Positions 1 to 7,872 of a DNA stretch of 7,872 nt are shown here, in pieces. This DNA comes from Bdellovibrionales bacterium. Lineage in GTDB: Bacteria; Bdellovibrionota; Bdellovibrionia; Bdellovibrionales; UBA1609. Position 1 is the stretch's first letter. Every line of letters begins with the position of its first letter. The stretch is from positions 1-7,872 of the forward strand of contig JAGRAB010000414.1 in NCBI GenBank assembly GCA_020435085.1, in the 5' to 3' direction. Made by a program: the position numbers and the translations under genes. Below the pieces are notes generated by a model. That model was not told where the DNA came from, made no database searches, and was given only the letters and a program-made list of their open reading frames with translations.

Positions 1-2
1 TT

Positions 3-371
3 TCTGTTGAGGCTGATAGGAAATTAAAAGATATAAGAAAGAAAATTAATGATGGAAGCTTTAAGCCGAGCTATAGTGAAAGAGAGATTATTTCAGTAGC
101 TCTAATGGAATTTCCCGTTCACTTAATTGAAGTGCTGAAATCCAAAAGAGTATCTGGCAAAGATTTTGTAATGCTTGAGATTAAAGAGAATTATCAAGAG
201 TATCTTAACGGTGGAGGTACACTTGATTTTAATTCGTATTTAAAAAAAGAAATAGTTCCTATCCTTGAAACGCAAAGAAAGAAAAAGTCCAAGTCAGTCA
301 AGGTAAAGCAGCATTCAAGTAAAAATACAAAACAAGGAGGCCAAAATGACAAAGTCTCTTATGTTTTTTAA
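3..371 (+). CDS. Unidentified element-borne protein, 5'-truncated by the window edge
   Basis: The frame is open from the first bases, so the gene starts upstream; the ATG at 105 is probably internal. There is no convincing Shine-Dalgarno sequence before 105, and the codons before it read as ordinary protein (SVEADRKLKDIRKKINDG). The visible 122 residues are rich in Lys, Glu and Ser. A mainly helical segment comes first (about residues 1-95), then a strongly basic, Ser/Lys/Gln-rich and probably disordered tail that includes RKKKSKSVKVKQ and ends in VSYVF. No transmembrane segment or known catalytic motif is visible. The basic tail could bind nucleic acid, but that is only a guess. Its last 26 bp overlap the next gene, and that gene's AGGAGG lies inside this one, so the two are probably translated from one message. 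Family not recognised. Confidence 0.65.
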   Translation, partial: SVEADRKLKDIRKKINDGSFKPSYSEREIISVALMEFPVHLIEVLKSKRVSGKDFVMLEIKENYQEYLNGGGTLDFNSYLKKEIVPILETQRKKKSKSVKVKQHSSKNTKQGGQNDKVSYVF

Positions 372-636
372 TATATTCTTTCTTTTGATTGCTTTTAGTG
401 GACTTGTAGGTTGTGCAATGGTTTGTAAAAAAATACGCCACATTAGCAAAGTTACAAGAAATCAAAACAAAGTTCTAATAGCGATTAAAAATGAAAGATC
501 AGAGGATGAAAAGTTAAAAGAACTGATTAATAAGTTCACATACGCTAAGGAAAGAGAGCAAAGACTGATGCTCTCCCTTGATAAGCTAATTGATTCAAAC
601 GAAAAAGTTCTAAATGCCATTAAAGGCGAAAGGTAG
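346..636 (+). CDS. Small predicted lipoprotein or membrane-anchored helical protein with an internal repeat
   Basis: This 96-aa protein starts at ATG 346 behind a consensus AGGAGG at 335-340 with 5-nt spacing. Residues 5-26 are hydrophobic and end in LVGC at 20-23, which fits a lipobox with Cys23 as the lipidated residue. There is no strongly charged n-region beyond Lys3, so a simple N-terminal membrane anchor is the alternative. The remainder is highly charged and probably helical or coiled-coil. Residues 41-51 (NKVLIAIKNER) recur as 86-96 (EKVLNAIKGER), with 8 of 11 identical, so the protein carries a short duplication. It overlaps the preceding gene by 26 bp and is followed after 7 nt by the next, so the three look like one operon. 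Phage or conjugation accessory proteins can look like this, but no family was recognised. Confidence 0.7.
   Translation: MTKSLMFFNIFFLLIAFSGLVGCAMVCKKIRHISKVTRNQNKVLIAIKNERSEDEKLKELINKFTYAKEREQRLMLSLDKLIDSNEKVLNAIKGER
466..633 (+). repeat. Degenerate 33-bp intragenic direct repeat (466-498 and 601-633)
   Basis: The two units are exactly 135 bp apart, in the same frame of the 96-aa protein gene. They agree at about 24 of 33 bases and 8 of 11 encoded residues. The second unit forms the extreme C-terminus, ending just before the TAG. This is a real sequence similarity; that it arose by duplication is inferred. Confidence 0.6.
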
Positions 637-643
637 GTTCGGG

Positions 644-808
644 ATGAGTGAAGAAGAAAAAGCAGACATATTAATGAGGGCTATTGGTTCTCTTGAAGAA
701 TCCTCTGAGGAGCTTGAAGAGGTGGCCGAGGAGTGTGAGGAGCAAGAAGAGGCCGCCATAGGCTTTCTGATGTGGCTGGGTCACATCTTAAAGAAAGTAA
801 TAGGTTAA
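644..808 (+). CDS. Very acidic 54-aa small protein with hydrophobic C-terminal helix
   Basis: The start is placed at ATG 644 rather than the upstream in-frame ATG at 614. The latter lies inside the preceding gene with no ribosome site, whereas AGGTAGG at 631-637 sits 6 nt before 644. The protein has 15 Glu and 1 Asp, with six Glu-Glu pairs spaced every 3-4 residues between 18 and 36, which in a helix gives an almost fully acidic surface. Residues 37-54 switch to AAIGFLMWLGHILKKVIG, hydrophobic with two lysines, probably an amphipathic or membrane-associating helix. It follows the 96-aa protein gene by 7 nt and is likely co-transcribed. No family recognised. A membrane-binding peptide, a partner of the lysine-rich neighbours, or a DNA-mimic-like protein are all possible, and none is shown. 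Confidence 0.55.
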   Translation: MSEEEKADILMRAIGSLEESSEELEEVAEECEEQEEAAIGFLMWLGHILKKVIG

Positions 809-844
809 TAAAAACAAATAGTTATGTGTGTATGAATATAAAAC

Positions 845-861
845 ATTGTTATAATAACAAT
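845..861 (+). promoter_or_regulatory. Extended -10 promoter overlapped by a perfect 17-bp palindrome (putative operator)
   Basis: ATTGTTATAATAACAAT is a perfect inverted repeat with 8-bp arms around a single central base (853). Its middle contains TATAAT at 850-855, preceded by TGT at 847-849, so it also reads as an extended -10 element. No good -35 hexamer is seen, as is common for extended -10 promoters. Transcription would start near 862, just before GGAGG at 864-868 and the ATG at 879, giving a very short leader. A dimeric repressor bound here would block RNA polymerase directly. The winged-helix protein of the downstream pair is the obvious candidate, by inference. Confidence 0.6.
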
Positions 862-878
862 ATGGAGGTATAATTATT

Positions 879-1442
879 ATGATGATTGATGAAAAGAATA
901 TTTTAAAAGTTTTTAAAGAATTAGATCAAATAATGGAGGAGCGTTGTCGTCAAGAAAAGCTGTTTATTTTTGGAAGCGCGGCTCTCATTTCAATGGGTTT
1001 TGTAGGTAAAGATCGAATGACAGAAGATGTGGATGTTGTGAAGCCTTTATTTGACAAAGAAATGATTGAGGTTGTTGCACATGTGGGTCAAAAGTTTGGA
1101 TTAAAAACTCGGTGGCTTAATAGCGATGGAGGTAAAGTTTTTTTGAAAGATATTCCTCTTGGATGGGAAGCAAGAGTGGTTGAGGTCTATAAAGGAACTT
1201 CACTGAATATTTTCTCTCTAGGAAGAACTGATTTAATTTGCACAAAACTTGATGCCTTTTGTGATAGGCAGTTAATGACTGACCAGCAAGATTTATTGGC
1301 GCTTAAACCCAGTACAGAGGAAATAGAGCATGCCTCTCAGTGGATTCTTTCAAGAGGTCATATAGCGGAAGAAGTCATTAAAGACGTAAAATTAGAAATT
1401 GGGAAATTGATAAAAAATAGAGGTCGTGGTTTTGAGCGTTAG
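879..1442 (+). CDS. Nucleotidyltransferase-fold protein, DUF6036 / AbiEii-like (putative toxin)
   Basis: This 187-aa protein starts at ATG 879, 10 nt after GGAGG at 864-868 (a second ATG follows at 882). It shows the signature of minimal nucleotidyltransferases of the DUF6036/AbiEii type. FGSAAL at 31-36 provides the Gly-Ser loop, and RMTEDVDVV at 46-54 provides the paired metal-binding acids (Asp50 and Asp52). C-terminal elements also typical of the family follow: TDLICTKLDAFCDR at 117-130 with Lys123, and the DQQDLLALKP segment at 135-144. In AbiE-type systems the nucleotidyltransferase is the toxin and modifies RNA (for example tRNA 3' ends in the MenT group). That activity is not established for DUF6036 proteins in general. 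Its 3' end overlaps the wHTH gene, indicating translational coupling. Antibiotic-type nucleotidyltransferase is a less likely alternative. The fold call is fairly sure; toxin is inference. Confidence 0.75.
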   Translation: MMIDEKNILKVFKELDQIMEERCRQEKLFIFGSAALISMGFVGKDRMTEDVDVVKPLFDKEMIEVVAHVGQKFGLKTRWLNSDGGKVFLKDIPLGWEARVVEVYKGTSLNIFSLGRTDLICTKLDAFCDRQLMTDQQDLLALKPSTEEIEHASQWILSRGHIAEEVIKDVKLEIGKLIKNRGRGFER

Positions 1443-2124
1443 AAATTGGGTTGAAGTCATTCCAGGGCTGACGTCCTTGGGAGCAGCTTATTACTACGAT
1501 GGAAAAATAACGATTGAGGAATCTGATCCTGAATTAGTTATTTTGAAGTCGTTAAAATATTACTGGAATGAAAATGATGTGTTTTTTATGCTCTATGATT
1601 TACTTATGTTGAGGATTGCTCCATTAGTTCATGTGGAAAGACTCGTAAAAATGGCAAAGACAGGTTTGCTTAGTCAAGATGAGTTAATTTTGCTTATTGT
1701 TGTGGCCGACAAGCTTGTTGCTAAAGGTGAGCATCGTTTCAAGATGGTTAGAAAGAAGCTTTATAAAAAAGGTATGAAGATTCAAAAACTCCCTCGATTA
1801 CATAGTCGTCCTAGTTTTGTAAAGCATCATGGAGCGGAAGAAGCTTTTCTGGAGTTTGGAGCAAGTGTCAGAAAGTTTTTAGCTCCTAGCGACAAAAAAC
1901 TTCTAACTTTGAAAGCCATTCTTAAAAGGAATGGCTGGTTAAAGCTCAGGGCTCTGATGGGGCCAAATTATCGAGCAGACGTTATTTATTTGAGAAGTTC
2001 TGGTGCAGCTAAGAATGTTTCTGAAGCTGCTAGAATGGCATTATGTGATTATACAGCAACTTATAGGATTCTTAAATATTCAGAAGAGCTTGAGCATTTA
2101 GAAAAAGTGCTTGGAGTAAGTTAA
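1432..2124 (+). CDS. Winged-HTH partner protein of the nucleotidyltransferase (putative antitoxin/autorepressor)
   Basis: Two start codons are possible: GTG 1426 (232 aa) and TTG 1432 (230 aa). TTG is preferred because AGAGG at 1419-1423 is 8 nt away from it but only 2 nt from the GTG. Either way the gene begins inside the nucleotidyltransferase gene, in another frame, a layout that favours fixed-ratio synthesis. Counting from the GTG, residues 1-165 form a helical region without a motif I recognise. Residues about 171-226, beginning LKLRALMGPNYRADVIYL and followed by a second helix with NVSEAARMA, resemble the ArsR-like winged helix found in proteins paired with such nucleotidyltransferases. 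AbiEi antitoxins likewise combine a wHTH domain with another domain and repress their own promoter, though with the wHTH at the N-terminus. The palindrome at 845-861 is a plausible target. Antitoxin role is inferred. Confidence 0.65.
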   Translation: MSVRNWVEVIPGLTSLGAAYYYDGKITIEESDPELVILKSLKYYWNENDVFFMLYDLLMLRIAPLVHVERLVKMAKTGLLSQDELILLIVVADKLVAKGEHRFKMVRKKLYKKGMKIQKLPRLHSRPSFVKHHGAEEAFLEFGASVRKFLAPSDKKLLTLKAILKRNGWLKLRALMGPNYRADVIYLRSSGAAKNVSEAARMALCDYTATYRILKYSEELEHLEKVLGVS

Positions 2125-2154
2125 TTTATTTTTGAAAATTTGAGGAGAAATGAT

Positions 2155-2382
2155 ATGAATAATAAAGACTCAGGAGGAGTCTTCGTTGAAAAAAAGAAGG
2201 ATTCTAGGCTCTTTGATAATCGAATATGGAATATAAAAGATGTATCAAGTTATACAGGGTATGCTGTTGGAACTCTATATAATTTAGCATCTAAAAATTT
2301 AATTCCCTATATTAAGAAACGGGGAAAGCTCTATTTCATACCTTGCCAAATCCAAAACTGGATTGAAGAAGGAGATTTATGA
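2155..2382 (+). CDS. Excisionase-like small HTH protein (HTH_17 / MerR-type fold)
   Basis: The start is set at ATG 2155, giving 75 aa, because AGGAG at 2143-2147 stands 7 nt upstream; the upstream TTG at 2140 would place the ribosome site inside the gene. After a polar N-terminal arm, residues 25-70 form a classic small winged helix. IKDVSSYTGYAVGTLYNLA (27-45) is the helix-turn-helix. Next comes the wing, KKRGKLYFIP (54-63), and a final QNWIEEG helix. Such proteins act as recombination directionality factors (Xis) or as AlpA-type regulators of integrase. Its stop (2380-2382) is one base before the integrase ATG, the usual xis-int pairing. It probably bends DNA at the att site to favour excision. 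A purely transcriptional role cannot be excluded. Confidence 0.75.
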   Translation: MNNKDSGGVFVEKKKDSRLFDNRIWNIKDVSSYTGYAVGTLYNLASKNLIPYIKKRGKLYFIPCQIQNWIEEGDL

Positions 2383-2383
2383 A

Positions 2384-3631
2384 ATGAGTAAAAAAAAGTA
2401 TGTGAATGTACCGAAGCACCCAGGAATTAGAAAAAATCTAATCACTGGGAAGTATTTAGTAGCAAAAAGAATTAAAGGAAAACAGTTTTCAGAGACTTTT
2501 GATTCTTTGAGAAAAGCTCAACATTGGAAAAATACATTTGACGGTCAAAAAGTTAAGAGAGTTGAGGCCACTACATCGACTTTAGGAGAAGTGTGGGAAG
2601 CTATGAAGCATTTACACTTTCCTGGCCTAGAGAAAAGCACCCAAGACATTTGGGAAAGGCGATGGAAACATCTTTCAGATTTAAAAGACTATCACATGGA
2701 AGAAATTACTTCTTCTGTAATCAATGATTGGATTGAGCGCAAGAAGAAGTGGTTTGAGTCAGATGAATATGACTCATTAGGAAGAGGTTATGCGGGTAGG
2801 TGTAACCTAAATAATGAGTTAAATTTATTTACGACAATTTTCAATTGGTATAAAGCCGAAGATGAGTTTGAAGCGGAGTCAGCTTTAATTCCGTCGCCAA
2901 TTCGCAGAAGACACAAGAAAATGTCTTTTTTTCGTGATACACCAAAAAATCCCGAAGATAAGAAAATTCCTGTTGAAGCTGCGTTTGAGTTTTTCTCATA
3001 TCTTCCTGAGCTATATTCAGATTTAGCAATGACACAATATTTTTGTGCAGGAAGAATTGGCGAAACAGCAGGAATCCAAATATCAAACATTTATCTGGAT
3101 CAAGATAAATTAGTTATCAAAGATTCCTGCGTATGGGGTGGTCCAAGTAAAATGTTTCAATACTTGAAGCCATATCCTAAAAATAAGGAACCCAGAACTG
3201 TTTTTCTTCATCCGTGGCTAAGAAAAATTATAGAAAGGCGTCTGGCTTTAAAAGCGCCTAACTGCGATTTTTTATTCCATGTGAAAGGTCGTCCATTGAA
3301 CTATTGCACTATCCAAAGTAATTACAGACAGGCCCAGACGAAATCTGGGATTCCTTATACAGGAACCCACTGTTTGAGACATGGAATGGCTACTTTAGCG
3401 AGAAGGGTAGGAGGAATGGGACTAGATTCAGTTATTGCTATGACCGGACATAAAGACTTAAAGCTAGCAGATCACTATTCTAAGATTGATAGTGAGGTGC
3501 AGAAGGAAACTTCAACTCGAATTGTTGAGCATATAAGTGAAGTTCTAGGTCTTAGTGGGAATGGGTCTGAAAGTAGTTCTGAAAAGGGTAAAATGAGAAG
3601 TAATGTAGTGCAATTGAGGAGGGTAAAATGA
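2384..3631 (+). CDS. int: Tyrosine recombinase (integrase) of the element
   Basis: ATG 2384 is chosen (415 aa), 9 nt after AAGGAG at 2369-2374; an in-frame TTG at 2363 has no ribosome site. Residues about 14-52 resemble an arm-type DNA-binding domain (KYLVAKRIKGKQFSETF, then a helix). A core-binding helical domain spans about 65-160, and the catalytic domain runs from about 195 to 385. The catalytic set is complete: Arg224 in CAGRIGE, a lysine around 266-268 before the RTVFL strand, His329 and Arg332 in THCLRHG, His356 in TGHKD, and nucleophile Tyr365 in ADHYSKI. It would integrate and excise the element through a covalent 3'-phosphotyrosine intermediate. About 50 polar residues follow the tyrosine. 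The enzyme looks functional. Its gene ends 76 bp from mutM, so the att site should be there. Confidence 0.93.
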   Translation: MSKKKYVNVPKHPGIRKNLITGKYLVAKRIKGKQFSETFDSLRKAQHWKNTFDGQKVKRVEATTSTLGEVWEAMKHLHFPGLEKSTQDIWERRWKHLSDLKDYHMEEITSSVINDWIERKKKWFESDEYDSLGRGYAGRCNLNNELNLFTTIFNWYKAEDEFEAESALIPSPIRRRHKKMSFFRDTPKNPEDKKIPVEAAFEFFSYLPELYSDLAMTQYFCAGRIGETAGIQISNIYLDQDKLVIKDSCVWGGPSKMFQYLKPYPKNKEPRTVFLHPWLRKIIERRLALKAPNCDFLFHVKGRPLNYCTIQSNYRQAQTKSGIPYTGTHCLRHGMATLARRVGGMGLDSVIAMTGHKDLKLADHYSKIDSEVQKETSTRIVEHISEVLGLSGNGSESSSEKGKMRSNVVQLRRVK

Positions 3632-3708
3632 TAAATGTGCTGACCTGTGCTGACCTAGCAAGATGTGCATTAAAAAAAGTTAATAAAATTAATAGGTTAG
3701 GTCGATAA
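3616..3708 (+). CDS. Possible 26-codon leader ORF linking integrase and mutM
   Basis: The ribosome site GAGGAGGG (3616-3623), inside the last codons of the integrase, is stronger than any other in this region and lies 5 nt before ATG 3628. That ATG overlaps the integrase stop as ATGA. The frame runs 26 codons to TAA 3706-3708, whose last base is the first base of the mutM ATG (TAATG). The ORF itself is 3628-3708. Its peptide begins MINVLTCADLARCALKK, and its sequence is shaped by the tandem repeat. It may not make a useful peptide. Its likelier role would be to carry ribosomes to the mutM start, which has only a poor ribosome site of its own. It could equally be chance. Confidence 0.3.
   Translation, partial: EEGKMINVLTCADLARCALKKVNKINRLGR
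3632..3707. other. Probable attachment-site (attL/attR) region at the element end
   Basis: This 76-bp gap between integrase and mutM contains the tandem 10-bp repeat and an A/T-rich tract at about 3669-3694, and ends where base composition changes. Integrases normally sit beside their att site, so the crossover probably lies here or just within the first codons of mutM. The exact core cannot be defined with only one end visible. No tRNA or tmRNA is present, so this would be a protein-gene-adjacent target. Confidence 0.5.
3636..3655 (+). repeat. Perfect tandem duplication of a 10-bp unit in the integrase-mutM gap
   Basis: TGTGCTGACC occurs twice without interruption. The unit is about one helical turn, so two proteins would bind on the same DNA face. 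Its position, just after the integrase gene, suits arm-type integrase or excisionase binding sites; this is inferred. GACCTA at 3652-3657 is also matched by an inverted TAGGTC at 3698-3703. Confidence 0.6.
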
Positions 3709-4532
3709 TGCCAGAACTGCCTGAAGTCGAAACGGTTCGCCGTGGTCTTAACGACATTTTGCCAAAACCAGTGACCATAGTGAAGGTAAAGTTGGGTCAC
3801 AAAGGTCTGCGTTATCCTTTTCGTCGGTCAGCCATATTGAAAAGTTGCGGTCAAAAAATTCTTGGGGTGGAAAGAAGAGCTAAGTATCTGTTGTTTCGCC
3901 TGGAAAAGGCCTATTTGCTCTCCCATTTGGGTATGACAGGGAGTTGGCGTTTAGGTGACGGGAATTCTGATCCCCACGATCATGTAGTTTTAACACTTTC
4001 TGATGGTCGGCAATTGATTTATCGCGATCCCAGGCGCTTCGGGCAGTTTGACTACATTAGTGAATTGAATTTCGATGGTGACCCTCGCTTTTCTCATTTG
4101 GGACCAGATCCCCTTGAGGAAGACGCTTTTTCCTACCCCTATTTCAAAGAAAAATTAAAAGGACGATCGTCCTCCATCAAAAGTTTAATTATGAATCAAG
4201 GGATTGTTGTCGGGGTGGGAAATATTTATGCCAGTGAGAGTCTCTATTTGGCGGGCATCCATCCTTTGCGTTCAGGATCCCATTTGCAGAATTCAGAAAT
4301 TAAAATCTTACGCGAAGCGATTGCGCACACACTGTGGGATGCTATTGCTTGCGGGGGTACGACCATCAGTGACTTTCGTCAGGCAGGCGGGTCTTCGGGT
4401 TACTTCCAAAACCTTCTTTTCGTCTATGGTCGAGCTGGAGAGCCTTGCCCACTCTGTAATACGACTATCGAAAGTCAAGTGATAGTCGGGCGGAACAGTT
4501 TTTGGTGTCCTCAATGCCAACCTTTGTCTTAA
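3708..4532 (+). CDS. mutM: Formamidopyrimidine-DNA glycosylase (Fpg/MutM)
   Basis: This enzyme removes 8-oxoguanine and formamidopyrimidines from DNA and cleaves the abasic site (beta,delta-lyase) in base-excision repair. The 274-aa protein is full length for the family. It begins MPELPEVETV, giving the catalytic N-terminal Pro after Met removal and Glu3. Lys59 is in RRAKYLLF. The void-filling residues are Met76 (LGMTGSW) and Arg109/Phe111 (DPRRFG). The H2TH motif is followed by VGVGNIYASESL with Asn172. The zinc finger has Cys247-x2-Cys250 and Cys267-x2-Cys270, with Arg262 in VGRNSFW. All key residues are present, so the gene appears intact although the element ends at its start codon. No strong ribosome site precedes it, only AGG-containing sequence at 3694-3701, and no convincing promoter is visible in the gap. 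Expression may depend on transcription or ribosomes from the element. The next gene follows by 32 bp. Confidence 0.97.
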   Translation: MPELPEVETVRRGLNDILPKPVTIVKVKLGHKGLRYPFRRSAILKSCGQKILGVERRAKYLLFRLEKAYLLSHLGMTGSWRLGDGNSDPHDHVVLTLSDGRQLIYRDPRRFGQFDYISELNFDGDPRFSHLGPDPLEEDAFSYPYFKEKLKGRSSSIKSLIMNQGIVVGVGNIYASESLYLAGIHPLRSGSHLQNSEIKILREAIAHTLWDAIACGGTTISDFRQAGGSSGYFQNLLFVYGRAGEPCPLCNTTIESQVIVGRNSFWCPQCQPLS

Positions 4533-4564
4533 AATAAAAGCTAGTCTGCTGAGGAGTTTCTGCT

Positions 4565-5608
4565 GTGTACAAGGTGCTGGAAAAGCGTCTTCCTGAACTG
4601 ATTGAATTAGAATCCTTGATTGAAAAAGTGAGCAATCGAGCCCGGGTGCGAGTGCTGACCGAAGTCAGCCACGATGATCATATTTTTCCGGTTTACTCTA
4701 TAGAAATTGGAAGCGAAGACCCTACCTCTCCTTGTTTTATGATGGTGGGTGGTGTGCACGGATTGGAGCGCATTGGTTCTTTAGTGTGTTTATCAACCTT
4801 GCGGACAGTGATCGAGCTTCTCGCTTGGGATCACACTCATAAGGCGAGACTTAATGAATCTCGACTGATTTTTGTGCCACTGCTCAATCCGGTGGGTATG
4901 TTCCGTCGCTCCCGCTCCAATGGGAACAACGTAGATCTCATGCGAAACGCTCCGGTGTACTCTGAAGAAGCTACTCGTTTTTTATATGGTGGTCATCGCA
5001 TATCTCCCAAAATTCCATTTTACCGAGGAGCCCTTGCTGATGGCCTAGAAAAGGAAAATAAAGCGCTGTGCGATTTTATCGAAGAAAGAGTGTTCCCTGC
5101 AAAAACCGCGATTTGTCTTGATGTTCACTCTGGTTTTGGTGCAACCGATAGGTTGTGGTTTCCTTATGCGCGAACAAAAAAGCCCTTTCCTTATTTTGTG
5201 GAAGCTTATGCTTTTCGTGAATTGCTAAACAATGCATACCCTCACCATCTCTACTCCGTTGAGCCTCAGTCCATTCAATACACGACCCATGGAGATTTAT
5301 GGGACTACCTGTTTGACATGCATTATCGCGATAAAAAAGATCAATTCTTTTTGCCGCTGACTTTGGAGTTGGGTTCCTGGAAATGGGTCAGGAAAAACCC
5401 CAAACAGATTTTTGATTTGCTAGGAGTTTGGAACCCTATCCTGCCCCATAGAAGAGCACGAGTGTTGAGAGATCATAAAACCTTTGTGGACTTTTTGCAT
5501 CGAGCCGTACTCTCTAGAGATTGGATCGATCTTCCCGAGGACAAACGGCAAATTTGGCGATTCGAAGCCTTGAACCTTTGGTATGGTGGCGATGATGGAA
5601 CAAATTGA
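4565..5608 (+). CDS. M14-family metallopeptidase-like protein
   Basis: GTG 4565 is the start, 8 nt after GAGGAG at 4551-4556, giving 347 aa. The order of motifs fits zinc carboxypeptidases of the M14 or succinylglutamate desuccinylase/aspartoacylase type. VGGVHGLERIG holds His65 and Glu68 as zinc ligands. NNVDLMRN at 121-128 corresponds to the usual GVDLNRN substrate-binding motif. His188 in LDVHSGFG is the third zinc ligand, and Glu268 in LTLELGSW is the general base. There is no signal peptide, so it is probably cytoplasmic. The substrate is unknown: trimming of peptides, peptidoglycan fragments or N-acyl amino acids is possible. The asparagine expected before Arg127 is replaced by Met126. 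It lies between mutM and a hydrolase gene that overlaps its 3' end by 26 bp, so the three are probably one transcript. Confidence 0.8.
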   Translation: MYKVLEKRLPELIELESLIEKVSNRARVRVLTEVSHDDHIFPVYSIEIGSEDPTSPCFMMVGGVHGLERIGSLVCLSTLRTVIELLAWDHTHKARLNESRLIFVPLLNPVGMFRRSRSNGNNVDLMRNAPVYSEEATRFLYGGHRISPKIPFYRGALADGLEKENKALCDFIEERVFPAKTAICLDVHSGFGATDRLWFPYARTKKPFPYFVEAYAFRELLNNAYPHHLYSVEPQSIQYTTHGDLWDYLFDMHYRDKKDQFFLPLTLELGSWKWVRKNPKQIFDLLGVWNPILPHRRARVLRDHKTFVDFLHRAVLSRDWIDLPEDKRQIWRFEALNLWYGGDDGTN

Positions 5609-6353
5609 TTTTGTTCTGTTGCGAGGGCTCGCACGGGAAGCTGGGCATTGGGGAAACTTCGTTGATCGCGTAGAGTCCCAAGATTTTTGTCAAAGTGCCT
5701 ATGCTCTTGATTTGCCGGGTATGGGCCGCTTTCATAAAATCTCTAGCCCTCTCAGTGTCGGGGAGATGGCCGAGTTTATCATGGCCGAGATTGAGCAACT
5801 GCCCCGAAATCCAAGGGCACCTTTGGTCCTTCTTTCAGTTTCATTAGGATCTATGGTGGCCATTGAATTAGCCCATCGCTATCCGCAAAAGTTTAGTAAA
5901 ATTATTCTAATGAATGTCAGCGTGGCGAGTCTCTCGCCGATTCATCATCGACTGATGCTTTCGGCTTGGAAATCCATGGTTAAAATTATGGCGCAGAAAT
6001 CCCCACGAGCCAGGGAACAGGCCGTGTTACAGATGGTGAGTAACAATGCAGAGGCGCAAGGGCGAGTGCTCTCGCAGTGGGAGGAGATCGCTAAAAAGCG
6101 TTCGCCAAAGCCAGCCAATGTCCTTCGCCAATTGATTGCGGCAGCAGCCTTTCGTTTGCCGAAGCAACGCCCTCTGTGCCCCATGGTCATTTTTGCTTCG
6201 GAGTCTGACCGCATGGTCGATGTGAGGTGTTCTAAAAAGTTAGCCCAACATTGGCAAATCCCCATTCATACCCACCCTTCGGCGGGACATGAGTTGGCTC
6301 TAGATGCCCCGGAATGGGTGATCGAAAAAGTCGCGGAGAGCCTTTCTCTTTGA
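5583..6353 (+). CDS. Alpha/beta-fold hydrolase with atypical nucleophile elbow
   Basis: A 256-aa protein if started at ATG 5583; ATG 5592 or 5595 are equally possible (253 or 252 aa), with GGTGG at 5585-5589 as a weak ribosome site for the latter. Counting from 5583, residues 11-26 (VLLRGLAREAGHWGNF) form the first strand and oxyanion region. YALDLPGMGRF (40-50) is the second characteristic turn. LLSVSLGSMVAIELA (83-97) is the nucleophile elbow with Ser87. Asp209 (FASESDRMVD) and His236 (SAGHELALD) complete a Ser-Asp-His triad. The usual Gly-x-Ser-x-Gly is Ser-x-Ser-x-Gly here. A helical cap lies around 118-190. No signal peptide, so cytoplasmic. Substrate unknown: an esterase- or lipase-like role is typical for this fold. 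It overlaps the M14-like gene, implying translational coupling. Confidence 0.85.
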   Translation: MVAMMEQIDFVLLRGLAREAGHWGNFVDRVESQDFCQSAYALDLPGMGRFHKISSPLSVGEMAEFIMAEIEQLPRNPRAPLVLLSVSLGSMVAIELAHRYPQKFSKIILMNVSVASLSPIHHRLMLSAWKSMVKIMAQKSPRAREQAVLQMVSNNAEAQGRVLSQWEEIAKKRSPKPANVLRQLIAAAAFRLPKQRPLCPMVIFASESDRMVDVRCSKKLAQHWQIPIHTHPSAGHELALDAPEWVIEKVAESLSL

Positions 6354-6394
6354 GTTGAAGTCGATTTTTCTGCAATGGTCCCTATAGAAATTAC

Positions 6395-6412
6395 AGGCTT
6401 AAGGAAAAGCCT
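6395..6412 (+). terminator. Small hairpin after the hydrolase gene (weak terminator candidate)
   Basis: AGGCTT (6395-6400) and AAGCCT (6407-6412) can pair as a 6-bp stem with a 6-nt loop, followed by TAATTCTCCTCC rather than a run of T. It lies 41 bp past the hydrolase stop, at the likely end of the mutM operon. The stem is short and the tail is poor, so intrinsic termination is doubtful. A TATTAT at 6433-6438 could be a -10 for the next gene, but no -35 matches. Confidence 0.25.
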
Positions 6413-6468
6413 TAATTCTCCTCCTATATCAATATTATCGTCTCAACACTTCAGAGAAGGGGGTTTTT

Positions 6469-7872
6469 CTGAGGCTGTTTTTAGGTGTATTTATCATAGG
6501 TTGGTTGTTGGGATGTTCGTCCTCGCAGCCCACTGATCCAAACTCTGCCGTCGGCAACAAGTCGGACTGTTTTTTTCGATTTTTCGATGAACAGTTTGCC
6601 TATTTTCTGAAGGCCGAGAACCAAGATCATGCTCTGCAGAGCAGTCAATGCGTGGCTCAGGGTTTGGCGCTGGCTGAAGCGAGCTTGCAAGAGCAACCTT
6701 CGCTAGGGTCCTCAGAAAATTTTTTGAGTTGGCTCAATCAAAATTTTTTACAAAAAGATCCGCTCAGTCTTGAGCATCTCAGTTTGTGGTTGAACCTCAA
6801 AGTTTGGCTTGTGGGTGGGGATCCGCAAAAACTCACAGCACAAGAATTGCGATCCTTGCGCACGATGATTTCTGCCTGGCAAATATTTTTACAATCCTCC
6901 CGGGAACATTTATCAAGTCTGCTCGTGACAGATAGGGCTACCTCCAGCCAGAATTTAAAACGGGCTTACCAAAACTTGAAACCACAAGTGGCCCGCTTGC
7001 TACAATCTTATCCTCATCTCATTAATAACTTTGATTTTAAAGCCTTTGTAAATCTTAATTACCAAAATAAATCGTATCATAATATTTCGAACGAAGCTTT
7101 TGATACCTCTCTGATGGGCGCACTGGTTTGGTTTGCCAACGGTAACTCTGAGACTTTGATATTTAAGAAAACCACAGAATTTATGTTGGACTCAATATAC
7201 CAATATAAAAAATTTCAAGTGGAGGTAGGAACAAGCTTACCGGAAGTTCTTTTTTCTGGTCATCGACTTTTTGCATACTTTGATGAGCTTGCTGAAATGG
7301 TGGATCCTTGGATGGAGGAATTGGGTGTTTTGCCCCTGACAGGATTTGATTATCTTGCCGATTATATTTCTCAAAATTATTTTTCTGGAGAAGTGGATCC
7401 AGATGACATTCATCGCTTTATGGAAACCATGGTGACCACTTACCTGAGTGAACCCGGTGACCCCTATGTGGAAGGGATCGGTATTAACCAATGGCTACTC
7501 GTAAAAAAACAGATGTCCATTCTTTCCACTCAAATGTCTCGCCTGCAATCCGTGGCCTTGCCAATATCCTCTTTAGATCCGGATCTATCTTGGCTTGAAT
7601 CCATGATGAGTCCATTCAGTTTATTTCGTATTGATTTGCAGTCCAATTTGCAAATTAGCCTACTTGAAGAGGGGCCATCCTCGGTTGAGGCTTACAAAGC
7701 GATGTTACTGCTCACTTACCCTGTACGTTTAGCCATCCAGGTGCGCGGTCGCCATTTTTTAAATCAGTTAACTCGTGAAGAATTTGATCAAGTCCTTAGT
7801 GACTTTTCTTTGTTTCAACGGTTTTGGCAGATGGATGTAGTAGCAGAAGGTGTTGCTGTAGATAATTTTGCC
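6469..7872 (+). CDS. Large predicted outer-membrane lipoprotein, 3'-truncated by window edge, apparent CTG start
   Basis: The frame is open from 6403 to the window end, with 468 codons visible from 6469. No ATG, GTG or TTG lies upstream of the signal-peptide region. CTG 6469 stands 5 nt after AAGGGGG (6457-6463) and yields MRLFLGVFIIGWLLGC, a textbook lipoprotein signal with lipobox LLGC and Cys16. Ser17 at +2 favours outer-membrane sorting by the enterobacterial rule. A second CTG at 6475 would shorten the n-region and remove Arg2. The mature part is mostly helical, rich in Leu, Gln and Ser, without recognisable catalytic motifs. Segments such as PLTGFDYLADYI and FMETMVTTYLSEPGDPY are notable but unassigned. 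Long lipoproteins without known homologues are common in Bdellovibrionota-type genomes. Function unknown. The gap from the hydrolase (115 bp) suggests a separate transcript. Confidence 0.8.
   Translation, partial: MRLFLGVFIIGWLLGCSSSQPTDPNSAVGNKSDCFFRFFDEQFAYFLKAENQDHALQSSQCVAQGLALAEASLQEQPSLGSSENFLSWLNQNFLQKDPLSLEHLSLWLNLKVWLVGGDPQKLTAQELRSLRTMISAWQIFLQSSREHLSSLLVTDRATSSQNLKRAYQNLKPQVARLLQSYPHLINNFDFKAFVNLNYQNKSYHNISNEAFDTSLMGALVWFANGNSETLIFKKTTEFMLDSIYQYKKFQVEVGTSLPEVLFSGHRLFAYFDELAEMVDPWMEELGVLPLTGFDYLADYISQNYFSGEVDPDDIHRFMETMVTTYLSEPGDPYVEGIGINQWLLVKKQMSILSTQMSRLQSVALPISSLDPDLSWLESMMSPFSLFRIDLQSNLQISLLEEGPSSVEAYKAMLLLTYPVRLAIQVRGRHFLNQLTREEFDQVLSDFSLFQRFWQMDVVAEGVAVDNFA

Follow-up and report, generated by a model that had tools for sequence, protein, structure and literature searches.

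We report that two overlapping genes on a contig of an uncultured Bdellovibrionales bacterium, related to predatory bacteria (GCA_020435085.1, JAGRAB010000414.1, from a draft genome of 61.85% completeness; all 7872 bases of this source contig constitute the window that was analysed) probably form a self-repressing toxin–antitoxin module, in which a MenT1-like nucleotidyltransferase (NT) is paired with a partner protein whose domains are arranged opposite to those of related partners. Judged from its sequence, the locus is most likely a MenAT/AbiE-like toxin–antitoxin module with a mirrored antitoxin. The NT gene (positions 879–1442, forward strand), defined by its open reading frame (ORF) and a Pfam match, encodes a DUF6036 protein of 187 amino acids and is preceded by a GGAGG resembling a ribosome binding site (864–868, forward strand). 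The partner gene (1432–2124, forward strand) encodes 230 amino acids, a boundary taken from the database gene call, the starts of homologues and a structural model. An original prediction made from the sequence alone had placed the start of this second gene at GTG 1426. The overlap that it described is real, but the start is most likely TTG 1432, because the database gene call and homologues begin at the equivalent codon. From this start the two genes overlap by 11 nt, as they do in two related loci (L003 and L013).

The first gene product had been described as a DUF6036/AbiEii-like NT with intact GS and DxD motifs, and this description is borne out. The protein matches Pfam DUF6036 with an E value of 9.5e-10 and 39 bits (cut-off 23.6), and it carries G32-S33, R46, T48, D50xD52, K123, R130, D135 and D138. 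Of the motifs of AbiE/DUF1814 NTase toxins, I and II (hG[GS]...DhD, with an arginine in motif II) are represented by G32-S33, R46 and D50xD52, and motif III by K123...R130 (KLDAFCDR). The D135xxD138 of motif IV is also there, but it is preceded by T134 rather than by K or R. Among 148 aligned rows, conservation reaches 144 for G32, 81 for R46, 146 for D50 and 143 for D52, with the motif III lysine in all 148 and its arginine in 142. The NT does not reach the cut-off for AbiEii PF08843 (E 0.13, 12.6 bits versus 22.5), and 13 of 76 NT family members match that model at E ≤ 0.01. The NT family profile also finds MenT1 (PDB 8an4) with an E value of 3.9e-4 over two weak stretches. Seven active-site residues of MenT1 are found in the NT with identical spacing inside both blocks, such that R46/T48/D50/D52 and K123/D135/D138 correspond to MenT1 R37/T39/D41/D43 and K137/D149/D152. 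The protein therefore carries the active-site pattern of MenAT-like NTase toxins (R-x-T/S-x-D-x-D and K-x11-D-x2-D), and the near-invariant T48 occupies the position of the MenT1 phosphoacceptor T39.

The partner matches no Pfam or PADLOC row, and searches of NCBIfam and PHROG returned chance-level rows only (E 0.16 and 0.22, respectively). A profile search with 17 seeds recovered 128 relatives, and no Pfam domain occurs among the 120 matches listed. A confident AlphaFold2 (AF2) model built from 125 sequences (pLDDT 94.8, pTM 0.91) has helices throughout. An N-terminal helical domain of approximately residues 1–145 (1435–1869, forward strand) is predicted from this model and from profile similarity to the C-terminal part of partners that begin with a helix-turn-helix (HTH), and the C-terminus is modelled as a three-helix HTH-like end (helices 179–188, 195–202 and 206–216; 1969–2082, forward strand). 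Of the C-terminal winged HTH proposed earlier for this protein, the HTH is retained but the wing is not, as the model has no strands past the recognition helix. Comparison of the whole model by Foldseek and VIA-align gave no good match, and several of the weak rows for the C-terminus are DNA-binding HTH proteins.

A survey of gene neighbourhoods, which the original prediction had called for, was carried out in 290 genomes of one phylum (Bdellovibrionota), and the pairing is kept in this order. The partner profile identifies 76 places in 56 genomes, two of which (the source contig and G028) are the same DNA, and DUF6036 (PF19502) occurs at more than 150 places in 114 genomes. By listed coordinates alone, an NT lies upstream at 52 of the 76 partner places and downstream at none, with no listed NT at the other 24, although the genome-level PF19502 search misses even the NT of the source contig. 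When the DNA of all 76 places was read, 65 proved to carry a same-strand NT or NT fragment upstream, and none an NT within 300 nt downstream. The NT thus comes first in 65 of 65 pairs, lying within 60 nt of the partner in 62; the other three (L161, L164 and L169) have broken NTs at 122–152 nt. The remaining 11 places comprise three contig edges, three weak partial partner matches and five without an NT, one of which has its partner cut by the contig end.

The first 165 or so residues of the partner had been said to match nothing recognisable. This is not so: about 145 of them match the helical domain of HTH-first DUF6036 partners, in which the domain order is swapped. Neighbours were read for 98 listed NTs that had no listed partner of the source-contig type (type A), and 129 adjacent partner ORFs fell into a cluster of 91 (83 downstream and 8 upstream of the NT), a cluster of 30 (29 upstream) and 8 singletons. 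At E < 1e-6, the cluster of 91 resolves into type A, with 50 downstream members that include the source-contig pair and two near-copies (L142 and L143), and a group whose members lie downstream in 33 cases (type B) and upstream in 8 (type C). Type C pairs (L044–L047, L049, L054 and L121) share with type A a DUF6036 NT and a partner that combines an HTH with a similar helical domain, but their partner gene lies ahead of the NT gene and the HTH is N-terminal (by Pfam rows that are below cut-off in the four scanned), followed by the helical part, so that they form a mirror image. In hhalign comparisons made after dropping one doubtful member (L168), residues 1–145 of the type A partner (49 rows) match the C-terminal part of type C (7 rows) with a probability of 91.6 and an E value of 8.1e-7, and the C-terminal part of type A matches the N-terminal HTH of type C with a probability of 88.1 and an E value of 3e-6. 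The crossed domain comparisons gave E values of 0.31 and 0.46, and the best values from 150 column shuffles each were 0.052 and 0.12. An alignment of database relatives (A4), partly overlapping with these sets, gave 1.2e-5 and 3.9e-5 for the same two pairings. Because the matches between types A and C occur in swapped domain order, the layouts NT-[helical-HTH] and [HTH-helical]-NT, as read from these profiles, coexist in one phylum, and in both the predicted helical domain adjoins the NT gene.

Type B (for example L057, L062 and L069) resembles type A in its NT-first order and in a helical part that aligns with that of type A (hhalign E 1.4e-4, probability 53). It differs in having a separate NT group on the tree and a C-terminal part, judged to be an HTH by inspection only, without a profile match to the type A HTH (E 0.079). 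Its similarity to type C is weak by profile (E 0.0028), and a single phmmer match joins type B residues 18–157 to type C residues 154–288 (i-E 4e-7). One locus (L101:1530–2594) holds a natural single ORF in which a type B NT, its last part missing, is joined to its partner; this fusion is likely a decayed locus. A third kind of partner, type E (the L087–L154 set), comprises 29 small proteins encoded upstream of the NT; judged by eye, many of them begin with an XRE-like HTH.

The two proteins are inherited together. NT and partner distances are correlated in Mantel tests (r 0.75 for 42 type A pairs and 0.78 for 29 type B pairs), with none of 2000 permutations as high. On a tree of 113 NTs, 4 changes account for the four partner types, against 54.9 expected after shuffling, and 3 for gene order; the tree is a quick one, in which 40 of 109 inner branches are weak. 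Type E NTs form two supported groups plus one stray row. The pair is a co-inherited module that recurs in the phylum.

Ahead of the NT gene lies the perfect palindrome reported in the original prediction, ATTGTTAT-A-ATAACAAT (17 nt, 845–861; strand not applicable), which is a candidate operator. Its centre is TGTTATAAT (847–855), which we take to be an extended -10-like box. The window has no other perfect palindrome with arms of at least 8 nt and a loop of 0–1 nt; 30 shuffles give an expectation of 0.43, and dinucleotide shuffling of 809–878 produced such a palindrome in 12 of 1000 trials. A -10-like hexamer reported by the scanner at 869–874 is unlikely to be a true -10 box because it sits between GGAGG and the start codon. 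Perfect palindromes with arms of at least 8 nt were also counted in the 90 nt before sister NTs, whose starts are estimated. They precede 10 of 58 type A NTs (0.55 expected, with a maximum of 3 in 100 shuffles), 1 of 32 type B NTs and 5 of 28 type E NTs. None was found in a control of 129 upstream regions of other ORFs of at least 150 amino acids at the same loci, from which 53 regions overlapping an NT upstream were left out; the control regions are less AT-rich (0.60 versus 0.69 for NT upstreams) and not all are promoters. Palindromes ahead of sister NTs exceed chance. TATAAT lies across the palindrome centre in 5 of the 10 type A cases (the source contig, L024, L064, L167 and L190), and the nearest relative (L003) lacks an upstream palindrome of this kind. 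The palindromes of L024 and L187 are perfect and very long, with arms of 14 and 20 nt, and stop 14 and 8 nt short of the estimated start of the NT.

The manner in which these loci decay fits a harmful role for the NT. Away from contig edges, 10 of the 76 places have broken or truncated NTs, nine with the partner present (counting L160, whose partner match starts at model position 25) and one (L164) with both genes broken. Four more places (L027, L037, L038 and L165) have a partner and no NT, and none of the 76 pairs an intact NT with a broken partner. The partner of L192 matches only to position 183, yet its ORF has 233 codons. Thirteen NTs that are odd or have no assigned partner were compared with profiles for NT groups A, B, C and E. 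Group A is the clear best fit only for L074 and L076, on contigs that stop 8 and 124 nt beyond the NT; L155 scores equally with A and B, at 18 bits. This interpretation carries the caveats that the genomes are drafts and that the loci were drawn through the partner. Against it, in-frame stops were flagged in five partner rows. In four of these (L035, L179, L183 and L162) we read the stops as natural partner ends, because the partner runs unbroken to the model end in an ORF of 216–254 codons; the fifth (L168) is a fragment.

Published precedents indicate how such a pair might operate. MenT1 extends tRNA 3′ ends with nucleotides, and MenA1 not only sequesters MenT1 but also drives phosphorylation of T39 (PMC10435456; PMC11375011). 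By analogy, we infer that the NT would be toxic, that the partner would neutralise it and that phage defence may be involved. The NT would add nucleotides to cellular RNA, most likely to tRNA 3′ ends as MenT1 does, and thereby halt growth. The helical domain of the partner would bind and silence the NT, perhaps through partner-driven phosphorylation of T48, and the C-terminal HTH would bind the palindrome, closing the promoter. With translation coupled through the 11-nt overlap, the amount of partner made would follow that of the NT despite the NT-first order. Carried on a mobile element, the pair may help to keep that element in the cell, or may stop phage.

The likeness to MenAT1 lies in the NT, through its active-site residues, their spacing, the profile match and T48. 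The partners differ, as MenA1 has 68 amino acids and no apparent DNA-binding domain, and 15 of 21 menA1 genes are located ahead of a menT-like gene (PMC10435456), whereas the partner here is far larger, has an HTH and is encoded downstream. AbiE (AbiEi/AbiEii, COG5340–COG2253) is likewise a two-gene system with a pol-beta-type NT, a two-domain partner with an HTH and an inverted repeat before the first gene (PMC3985639). These shared features, together with NT motifs I–III and the DxxD of motif IV, would suit a plain AbiE system (type IV, in which toxin and antitoxin form no complex) whose gene order has merely been rearranged, a possibility that we regard as highly improbable. In AbiE the AbiEi gene comes first and its winged HTH is N-terminal, as the original prediction had stated in agreement with PMC3985639, where Dy et al. 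put the regulator gene ahead of that for the NTase in each of the two AbiE-type pair families; the discussion of PMC11375011 gives the order the other way round, and the sources thus differ. Here the NT is first in every pair, the partner has an all-helical body with a wingless HTH at its C-terminus, and the partner profile finds nothing among PDB sequences at E ≤ 1, hence no AbiEi. The proposed reversal of both gene order and HTH position therefore holds, and the pair is related to, but distinct from, AbiE, differing from its members in gene order and antitoxin architecture. Reversed toxin–antitoxin gene order has precedents in hipAB/hipEB, which has a kinase toxin and for which no domain swap within the antitoxin is described in the portion available (PMC8262856), and in the putative GacTA (PMC6929052).

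An all-helical protein beside a nucleotidyltransferase also recalls HEPN/MNT systems, in which case the roles would be reversed, with the NT as an antitoxin that modifies and silences a toxic helical partner. The HEPN motif is Rx4-6H, and the source-contig partner carries R61-x5-H67. However, the aligned arginine and histidine are present in only 13 and 15 of 125 relatives, so the motif is not conserved. The NT resembles MenT/AbiEii, the partner bears an HTH-like end, and loss of the NT with the partner kept, by 13 to 0, is the reverse of the pattern to be expected if the partner were toxic; this role reversal is quite improbable. It is also unlikely, if somewhat less so, that the substrate of the NT is a small molecule or a regulatory protein and that the HTH partner is its ordinary regulator outside any toxin–antitoxin system. 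Such an arrangement sits poorly with the match of K123/D135/D138 and R46/T48 to the DUF1814/MenT pattern, with co-inheritance of the NT and an overlapping partner gene, with a patchy spread over 56 of 290 genomes, and with retention of the partner where the NT is broken. A toxin–antitoxin module with a mirrored antitoxin remains the reading we prefer.

The pair had been proposed to be cargo of an integrative element, and its surroundings agree. Directly downstream are genes for an excisionase-like HTH_17 protein (2140–2382, forward strand) and a tyrosine integrase (2363–3631, forward strand), both recognised by family matches, followed by mutM and other ordinary genes. The best NCBIfam row for the excisionase-like gene is MAD1 (methylation-associated defence system), but with 28.8 bits where 80 are required the gene is not a member. 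In the closest genome of the same genus (L003:5448–8745), a weak HTH_17-like gene (E 0.049) and then a tyrosine integrase again come after the pair. As this integrase has no tblastn match to that of the source contig, separate capture of the two pairs by integrative elements is suggested. Over its full length (1–7872) the contig shares 99.96% identity with a section of a 33-kb contig from the metagenome-assembled genome HKST-UBA04 (L002 and L012). That genome is assigned to a different family within the order; either genome may have been mis-binned, so the true host is unsure. Near two other type A loci are ATPase ORFs (L015:3100–4242 and L016:3120–4358), presumably of the AAA_14/DUF4143 kind. 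The partner was found in no phage or plasmid record searched and the NT in no plasmid record searched (phage records were not searched for the NT), and scans of viral contigs confirmed no relative.

Although the partner is matched in 56 and DUF6036 in 114 of the 290 genomes sampled, the open-access literature searched yielded no paper naming DUF6036 or PF19502, and PADLOC no partner match. For reversed AbiE-type order and COG4849/COG4861 pairs, no title or abstract start among the matches listed describes a mirrored partner. This type of module recurs and is apparently unstudied. We tentatively raise a mirror rule, doubtful as it is, whereby a flip of gene order would be accompanied by a flip of antitoxin domains, keeping the neutralising domain encoded next to the toxin, either for assembly while both proteins are made from one message or as the legacy of a split ancestral fusion; T48 phosphorylation might then serve as an off switch in a large toxin–antitoxin superfamily missed by defence catalogues. 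If the NT is toxic, tRNA-modifying toxins of the MenT/AbiE type would extend to a large group that has no papers in the literature searched, and the natural mirror pairs would allow a direct test of whether neutralisation depends on where an antitoxin domain lies with respect to the toxin gene.
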